Assembly (NCBI GenBank): GCA_018658305.1
Contig: JABHVM010000012.1
Location: forward strand, 1-38,575
Direction: 5' to 3'
Origin: Thiotrichales bacterium
GTDB taxonomy: Bacteria; Pseudomonadota; Gammaproteobacteria; GCF-002020875
Length of the DNA stretch: 38,575 bases
Shown here: one piece after another, positions 192 to 1,003 of the stretch
Layout of the letters: every line of letters begins with the position of its first letter
Numbering within the stretch: position 1 is the first letter of the stretch
Position numbers and translations under genes: made by a program
The notes under the pieces: generated by a model
What the model was told of the DNA's origin: nothing
Database searches by the model: none
The model's input: the letters and a program-made list of their open reading frames with translations, nothing else

Positions 192-947
192 ATGAACAAA
201 TTTAACTCTAAAACAAATATAGAAGATAGTCACGCAGACAGCCTATTAGAAAATAGAGGTAACTTATTAGATTCTGTTAATAAAGTTCTAAAAAAACTCA
301 CCCTAGTAAAAGATAAAGAGAGATCTTTGTTTTTAGCAAATAAACTTTTTGCTGAAATTATTTATGATGTTGCATATCTTGAAGGAAGCCCGTACACCTT
401 TCCTGAAGTACAAACCCTATTGGAAGGTATTACTGTTGGTGGGCATAAACTAGATGATGAGAAGCTAATAATTAATCAATCTAATAGTTGGAAACTATTA
501 TTAGAGATGGTTAAGAAAAATGAATTTACTATATCTAAAGAAGTTGTCTTAAAACTTCATACAAAAGTTGCTAAAGAAGAAGCATTAAAGTGGGGGAGTT
601 TTAGAGATGGTCAAGTCTATATTGCTGGTACAGAGTGGATGCCACCAGCTCATGAAGCGTTAGATGCAATATTTAAAAGTGTCACTAAAGATATAGAGAC
701 AATAGCAAATCCTTATGAAAAAGGTATTTGCTTGTTTCTTTATATGGCAAGAAATCAATTTTTCTATGATGGCAACAAAAGAACAGGGCGTTTAATGATG
801 AATGGAATTATACTTAGCGCTGGATATGAAGCCATTAGCATTCCTGCTAAGAGTAAACAAGCGTTCAATGAGAAGATGATTAGGTTTTATAATTCAGGCG
901 ATACAATTGAGATGTTAGAGTTTATTCTATCTTGTAGCCGAGTCTAG
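192..947 (+). CDS. Fic-domain family protein with degenerate catalytic motif
   Basis: Fic-fold protein of 251 residues. Fic enzymes normally transfer AMP or another phosphate-containing group to target proteins. The N-terminal part has an inhibitory-helix-like segment, YLEGSPYTFPEV (residues 62-73, E64-G65), resembling the class II (S/T)xxxE(G/N) motif, but with Val where Ser/Thr is expected. GSFRDGQVYI (135-144) and the following PP are typical of the Fic core. The active-site loop reads QFFYDGNKR (189-197) against the consensus HxFx[D/E]GN[G/K]R, so the catalytic His is Gln while the phosphate-binding D-G-N-K-R is intact. It may therefore have lost AMP transfer or do other chemistry. The ATG at 192 is used because an earlier ATG (181) hits a stop at once. 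The ribosome site (AAAGG near 166) is distant and weak. Codon use is more AT-rich than in purB, and repeats flank it, suggesting transfer. Confidence 0.88.
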   Translation: MNKFNSKTNIEDSHADSLLENRGNLLDSVNKVLKKLTLVKDKERSLFLANKLFAEIIYDVAYLEGSPYTFPEVQTLLEGITVGGHKLDDEKLIINQSNSWKLLLEMVKKNEFTISKEVVLKLHTKVAKEEALKWGSFRDGQVYIAGTEWMPPAHEALDAIFKSVTKDIETIANPYEKGICLFLYMARNQFFYDGNKRTGRLMMNGIILSAGYEAISIPAKSKQAFNEKMIRFYNSGDTIEMLEFILSCSRV

Positions 948-1003
948 TATAAAAGGGGTCAAGAGTATAAAAGTATAAAAGGGGTCAGGTCTTTACTTTT
1001 GCA
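947..1003 (+). repeat. Dispersed repeat copy A, with tandem GTATAAAA units
   Basis: GTATAAAA occurs at 947-954, 965-972 and 973-980, and TATAAAAGGGGTCA is repeated exactly at 948-961 and 974-987. The second unit runs into GGGGTCAGGTCTTTACTTTT (981-1000) and then GCA. Nearly the same sequence is present in reverse orientation at 21633-21656 (22 of 24 matches), and its last 14 bases reappear in reverse at the right edge (38562-38575). From memory, motifs of this GGGGTCAGGTCTTTACTTTT kind are common beside REP-associated tyrosine transposases in proteobacteria. No such transposase is in the window. Confidence 0.7.

Follow-up and report, generated by a model that had tools for sequence, protein, structure and literature searches.

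An intact Fic protein with glutamine at the motif-histidine site belongs to a clade with a consistently altered active site

Textbooks recognize Fic enzymes by the histidine of their motif, and a protein without this residue is readily written off as dead. Fic proteins with glutamine at this site (here called Q-type) form a clade that is already in print: Khater and Mohanty (2015) described clade D2 from 45 sequences, with Gln for the catalytic His in the motif Qx[F|Y]x[D|E][G|V]NKR. In their section on this clade, the authors suggest that the proteins are not dead and argue for residual activity from the His-to-Ala form of IbpA (PMC4454073). A search by title or abstract, thin on subscription papers, returned no experimental study of a Q-type Fic. 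The Doc toxin has a lysine at motif position 8 that is reported to force inverted binding of ATP (PMC4177925). The inhibitory Glu of FICD-type proteins is described as repressing AMPylation and, in FICD, as supporting deAMPylation too (PMC6408439; PMC8373988). FICD deAMPylation reportedly uses Glu234 to position the attacking water and requires His363 (PMC8373988).

The window, the whole stretch of 38,575 nucleotides that we analysed, carries a Fic gene with an intact open reading frame from ATG to stop (Table 1). Fic is the sole domain detected by the Pfam scan across the 251 residues of the protein (PF02661, 43.7 bits against a gathering score of 24, residues 114-204). An AlphaFold2 model computed from a 27-row alignment has a mean pLDDT of 90. 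Its best structural match is FICD (Z 24.9, 2.4 Å over 221 residues, 20% identity, model residues 23-251), and Gln189 therefore occupies the place of the catalytic histidine. The residue is encoded by CAA at 756-758 and opens the motif QFFYDGNKR within the Fic fold, as the initial annotation had claimed from the letters. The phosphate-binding loop residues are kept, and the inhibitory Glu of FICD has Glu64 as its aligned counterpart, both in agreement with that annotation. Its description of an intact D-G-N-K-R loop holds for the integrity of the loop and not for its type, since Lys196 stands where AMP-transferring Fics have Gly. The Doc-like character of this loop, the coupling of Lys to Gln and the earlier publication of the clade had been overlooked. 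Every alignment-invariant residue is found in the window protein. It belongs, as an intact protein with a single domain, to the Q-type Fic clade, which combines an inhibitory Glu resembling that of class II Fics such as FICD and SoFic with a consistently altered active site.

Table 1 Features of the Fic gene and its 3' edge in the window
Feature	Position	Strand	Evidence
Q-type Fic protein, 251 aa	192..947	+	ORF, Pfam, model, structural match
Inhibitory-helix segment, residues 59-68, DVAYLEGSPY, Glu64 at 381-383	366..395	+	FICD alignment
Flap segment, residues 138-146, with Arg138	603..629	+	Arg138 invariant in 76/76 Q rows
Fic motif QFFYDGNKR, residues 189-197; Gln189 for His, Lys196 for second Gly of GNG	756..782	+	Alignments
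Arg200, second motif arginine	789..791	+	Arg in 46/54 short and 22/22 long Q rows
Tyr233, co-switched position	888..890	+	81/81 scored QK rows, 0/40 scored HG rows
Dispersed repeat adjoining the 3' side of the gene; two copies of AGTATAAAAGGGGTCA, and AAAGGGGTCAGGTCTTTACTTTTG at 978-1001	946..1001	+	Repeat search

Glutamine is the rule of a subfamily. A contig scan gave Gln at the motif-His site in 28 of 28 loci, a count that cannot prove the rule, as one of the six search peptides was NQFFYDGN. The question was therefore repeated without the motif in 369 genomes of the class and 398 genomes of the phylum; the plasmid and phage searches were also motif-free. Both genome samples show a score gap between close relatives, at 118 bits or more, and remote Fics, at 67 bits or less, with the exception of a 61-residue fragment (65.8 bits, 62% identical) counted with the close set. 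All 21 close homologous domains read, the window left out, carry Gln; some are the same genes as in the 28-locus scan, and one more close match (G057 C207), which has stops, lies outside the 21. The close family is patchy, present in 14 of 369 class genomes and 9 of 398 phylum genomes, with the window's genome and one other genome included in both samples. The remote relatives beneath the score gap include His-type proteins (HPFxDGNGR) and a group of about 460 aa that is again Q-type, mostly with the motif LQ[AP]FxDVNKR. The short Q-type proteins are mostly 213-283 aa long, and the named relatives of the window protein are bacterial. The sequences closest to the short-Q profile and to two long Q-type proteins among solved structures are FICD and C. 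elegans Fic-1, with HPF as the aligned motif.

The glutamine is coupled to a lysine and a tyrosine. We aligned 154 Fic domains, duplicates included, with an HMM; the His rows were taken from the top scores of the Pfam and Doc models, so that the sample favours canonical proteins. The motif-His site and motif position 8 combine as Q+K in 86 domains, Q+R in 1, H+G in 45, H+K (Doc-like) in 17, and Y+K, R+K and H+C in 1 each, with 2 domains gapped, and Q+G occurs in none of the 154. Position 8 is Gly in 42 of 42 His rows that align over the inhibitory Glu, where the H+K and H+C rows are gapped. The de-duplicated count drops rows of fewer than 150 residues and picks its His group as H, G, E and its Doc group as H+K, so that the Q groups alone serve as the test; position 196 is Lys in 53 of 54 short Q rows (Arg in one) and in 22 of 22 long ones. 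Tyr233 takes the place of a variable residue, and its counts in Table 1 include duplicates. Twelve plasmid and phage records, hand-chosen from the spread of plasmid matches and from the phage matches, were added: all 8 Q rows, two of which are split genes, have Lys and Tyr, and all 4 H rows have Gly and none has Tyr, one being gapped at 233. Next to Tyr233 lies Asn234, whose counterpart in the alignment is FICD Asn407 (numbered from the motif), a residue reported to contact adenosine (PMC4342408). The Tyr233 switch may re-tool the donor pocket, its nearness to which is read from the alignment only. Set aside before the tree and the counts were L003 and L106, which are the window again; L005, L035, L036, L039 and L044, which are identical to kept rows; and L066 (74% identical to L097) and L094 (80% identical to L045). 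The last two are both Q+K with Glu64 and Arg200, and no count depends on either.

Asp193, Asn195, Arg197, Arg138 and Glu64 are mostly or always retained across the clade. Residues 138-146 are taken here to be the flap, by comparison with Fic structures and from the FICD alignment. Glu is found at position 64 in 49 of 51 scored short Q rows, with 3 more gapped, and in 22 of 22 long ones. It is also kept in 9 of 11 Q rows that lack Arg200, 7 of 8 in the main set and 2 of 3 among the added unsplit rows, which suggests that Glu64 is probably more than a clamp for Arg200. The two exceptions, L100 and L163, are fused to zeta-toxin parts and have lost Glu64, Arg200 and the motif Asn while keeping Q and K; the split genes L161 and L164 lack Arg200 and have the Glu of position 64 in a separate frame. 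Arg is found at position 200 in 0 of 17 Doc-like H+K rows. Of the inhibitory-helix pattern (S/T)xxxE(G/N), the window protein has Glu64-Gly65, with Val60 at the S/T position. Four residues before Glu64, Ser or Thr occurs in 42 of 42 His-type rows, and the 54 short Q rows have T in 17, A in 14, S in 6 and V in 5. The inhibitory helix is thus only partly preserved.

We built a quick tree of 119 rows from an alignment stripped of the Q and K columns, leaving out rows with fewer than 150 aligned residues as well as L017, L137 and L149. The His/Gln state requires one change on this tree, which together with the 21 of 21 close domains answers positively the question, raised in the initial annotation, of whether Gln characterizes a subfamily. 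The window protein sits inside an all-Q set of 52 rows (SH-aLRT 99). The branch uniting the two Q groups has a support of 84 and also takes in, in an open fork, a His row on a long branch and a single long Q row. A single origin of Gln is the simplest reading of the tree and not proof of it. Doc rows have fewer than 150 aligned residues and are therefore absent. The close Q-type pairs are under purifying selection, with dN/dS of 0.05-0.20 in the 11 of 20 pairs with computable dS, short and long forms alike; dS is saturated in the other 9, which give no ratio. The Gln codon is CAG in 50 rows and CAA in 35, so that the codon drifts and the residue stays.

Some Q-Fic domains are fused to helix-turn-helix-like or zeta-toxin parts. 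The two proteins of about 460 aa that were scanned, out of 22 rows, have weak N-terminal helix-turn-helix matches below gathering (Penicillinase_R 19.1 bits, HTH_20 18.3 bits). The protein of L100 (280-1782), from an Acinetobacter plasmid, combines an N-terminal zeta-toxin domain (46.7 bits) with a region 34% identical to the window protein that has no Pfam Fic match at E 0.01. L163 (1437-2717), also on an Acinetobacter plasmid, has a zeta toxin family annotation like that of L100 and a C-terminal degenerate Q-type Fic region; both share the degenerate motif NQFTFEGEKR. Acinetobacter accounts for 96 of the 537 plasmid records with a match, and these two were the ones examined.

The neighbourhoods of 52 close Q-type loci were surveyed over up to three ORFs of at least 70 aa per side, 241 ORFs in all, with many loci cut by contig ends and with a crude ORF caller that took an overlapping wrong frame for the Fic gene at a few loci (e.g. 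L006, L010, L029). Among these ORFs, no gene recurs beside most of the 52 loci. Recurrent neighbours are transposases and a second Q-Fic, the latter at L020 (= L044) and L023 and, by BLAST but not by HMM, at L021; the apparent second Q-Fic of L026 is its own split frame. Small clusters of shared neighbours cover 2-4 loci, mostly close kin (L008-L011, L012/L018, L091/L093, L095/L098), and L004/L026, which are not close kin. The tandem Q-type pairs lie at 4227-5657 in L020 and 4223-5660 in L023, the upstream copy having the motif and a short C-terminus. At L009, L017 and L042, one of the first three ORFs upstream is a Doc-type gene, at a distance of 200 to 2756 bases; that of L042 has Tyr in the motif-His place. 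On three plasmids, DndB-like, PAPS-reductase-like and GmrSD-like genes lie shortly upstream of Q-type Fics (L095 984-4506, L098 3433-4530, L099 3002-4387). This defence-like setting belongs to a minority of loci and does not recur beyond these three among the loci examined.

The window copy looks horizontally acquired, as judged from its low GC content (32.5% for the gene, 42.6% for the window, 44.7% for purB), comparison within the genus and a repeat at its 3' side. Five other genomes of the genus were compared: a match is absent from three and only remote in two, and all five carry a different, divergent ORF upstream of purB. The AAAGGGGTCAGGTCTTTACTTTTG repeat has 8 copies in the genome when 2 mismatches are allowed, against 0 for the backwards control. 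A 287-aa ORF (L101, G000 C22), which looks like a REP-associated tyrosine transposase, lies between two copies set in inverted order. The fragment CACTCTGACCCTGATT follows the repeat in L103 and is also found 5' of the Fic gene, at about 131-150 of the window. The dispersed repeat 3' of the gene is possibly a mobile or rearranged edge. The contig starts at window base 1, and bases 1-69 of the + strand seemingly hold the final codons of a different reading frame, whose tail resembles a membrane helix, as judged by eye. The same genome also encodes two His-type Fics, L001 (G000 C53) and L002 (G000 C32), with the motifs IHPFWDGNGR and IHPYEDGNGR.

We propose that the window protein is a nucleotide-site enzyme that has abandoned His-based AMPylation and, aided by Glu64, removes or transfers a group other than AMP; we give this reading a probability of about 0.4. 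The gene would spread horizontally, and its product would work inside the bacterium that harbours it, with no partner gene dedicated to it. The Fic pocket would still bind either a nucleotide or a target that has been nucleotidylated. By analogy with the equivalent residue of Doc, Lys196 would disturb the alpha-phosphate hole formed by GNG, and the ligand would consequently be placed differently from ATP in an AMP transferase. Ordinary AMP transfer is not expected, because the histidine base is absent; the initial annotation voiced the same expectation and suggested a regulator, a decoy or a different transferase. Glu64 may act on water or a hydroxyl, like Glu234 of FICD, so that removal or transfer of a group other than AMP becomes the most likely activity. 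The kept residues Asp193, Asn195, Arg197, Arg138 and Glu64, together with the new Gln, Lys and Tyr, look like a site set up for another task, not one that is eroding. Several points weigh against this proposal: deAMPylation by FICD needs His363, so that Glu64 alone may not suffice; Glu64 could be retained for folding; a conserved site can also fit a pure binding protein; and the inhibitory helix is only partly preserved. It is a doubtful extension that Q-type Fics form a separate enzyme class, marked by the Gln-Lys-Tyr set, one origin and plasmid and phage spread across phyla, in which the formerly inhibitory Glu has become catalytic and drives a histidine-free reaction such as removal of AMP, UMP or phosphate from bacterial proteins, or one with a different nucleotide.

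Enzymatic activity of another chemistry is favoured by a narrow margin over a nucleotide-sensing pseudoenzyme, a tentative but serious contender in which the pocket binds nucleotide without turnover and signals by its shape as a sensor or regulator. The branch of about 460 aa would then gate its N-terminal helix-turn-helix on DNA, and the short branch would act by binding to a partner protein. This reading is favoured by the disappearance of the general base from a protein that keeps its binding loop, by the weak helix-turn-helix matches and by the Fic parts of L100 and L163, which retain Q and K after losing Glu64, Arg200 and the motif Asn. However, Gln, Lys and Tyr233 are fixed across the two Q branches as strictly as catalytic residues, and Glu64 nearly so, and none of the neighbour genes recurs at most of the 52 loci examined. 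Isolated decay of an ordinary AMP-transferring Fic, in this one allele, is hardly credible. Some relatives are split or interrupted (e.g. L017, L069, L161, L164), but the window frame is open and intact with all alignment-invariant residues, and Q stands in every close relative read. The alternative named in the initial annotation, of homologues mostly with His and a decayed copy here, is excluded by this and by the purifying selection.

The protein could also be a slow histidine-free transferase that modifies hydroxyls with AMP, or with phosphate as Doc does, using Lys196, Tyr233 or Glu64 as the base and acting as a self-restrained toxin. We regard this as unlikely. It would agree with the Doc-like NKR, with the residual-activity argument that Khater and Mohanty draw from IbpA, with the occurrence on plasmids and in phage records, with the Doc-type genes near 3 of the 52 loci, and with the annotated toxin-antitoxin genes beside L094 and L164, the Fic gene of the latter being split. 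Against it, the motif His is reported to be needed for AMPylation by CccR and for both reactions of FICD, and no recurrent antitoxin-like gene lies beside the 52 loci among ORFs of at least 70 aa, a length that misses shorter antitoxins. A role in antiphage defence, whether as the PADLOC candidate type PDC-S04 or as the SoFic type, is very improbable. The window protein does match both models (46 and 31 bits), and 27 of 27 members of alignment A1, whose 27 rows include L017 with its frame-shifted start and two short tandem copies, match SoFic at E 0.001 or better (best 2.8e-17). However, the models fit His-type proteins far better: four that were scanned reach 128-139 bits with PDC-S04 and 103-121 with SoFic, whereas none of six Q-type proteins exceeds 56 and 49 bits, respectively, and two match neither at E 1e-5. 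With these scores the window protein was not filed as PDC-S04, and one PDC-S04 gene was reported to give no sign of defence in its own host (PMC12409345).

The Q-type branch, published earlier, is widespread, with several active-site positions altered jointly. Since these positions changed together and are held by purifying selection in several phyla, dismissal of the proteins as dead is unwarranted. The window protein is small and self-contained and offers exact positions to mutate, which makes the question of Gln Fic function, posed in 2015, directly testable. Relative to the published section on clade D2, the present analysis adds the coupling of Tyr233, the retention of Glu64 without Arg200 and the fusions to helix-turn-helix-like and zeta-toxin parts; we claim no wider priority.

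Comparison with known systems places the window protein closest to clade D2, whose motif is matched by its QFFYDGNKR. It shares with D2, as that clade is characterized in its own section, Gln for His, a bacterial origin and a usually single-domain architecture. In contrast to the placement of D2 within Doc by its authors, the Q-type proteins examined here have the inhibitory Glu and mostly the second Arg, their nearest solved relative is FICD, and multidomain members exist. Doc-like proteins are not known to carry an inhibitory Glu; the alignments of the 17 Doc-like rows here cover the core only. The Doc toxin, a kinase (TIGR01550), resembles the window protein in the Lys at motif position 8 and in the Asn that precedes the motif in 16 of 17 Doc-like rows and in 44 of 86 QK rows, and differs in keeping the His, by which its H+K rows were chosen, and in lacking the second Arg in all 17. 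Filing the window protein as Doc was rejected, as it scores 21.7 bits against the TIGR01550 cut-off of 38.65 and has no catalytic His. The best phage family is phrog_11900 (E 1.6e-59, 202 bits), which has no assigned function, and comparison with a viral fold library yielded two hits at E 0.001 or better, whose TM scores, normalized to the query, are 0.63 and 0.54. BepC, with a presumably non-canonical motif, is similar by description, not residue by residue, in that its Fic fold is reported to act by recruiting a partner, GEF-H1; it is different as a host-directed effector. The class II protein FICD/HYPE shares the fold, the inhibitory Glu, the flap Arg, the Asp, the Asn and both motif arginines. 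Class II proteins are defined by the catalytic His in HxFx[D/E]GNGRxxR and by the GNG anion hole, where the window protein has Gln189 and GNK; it further differs from FICD in having Tyr233, in having no TPR part and in an identity of about 20%.
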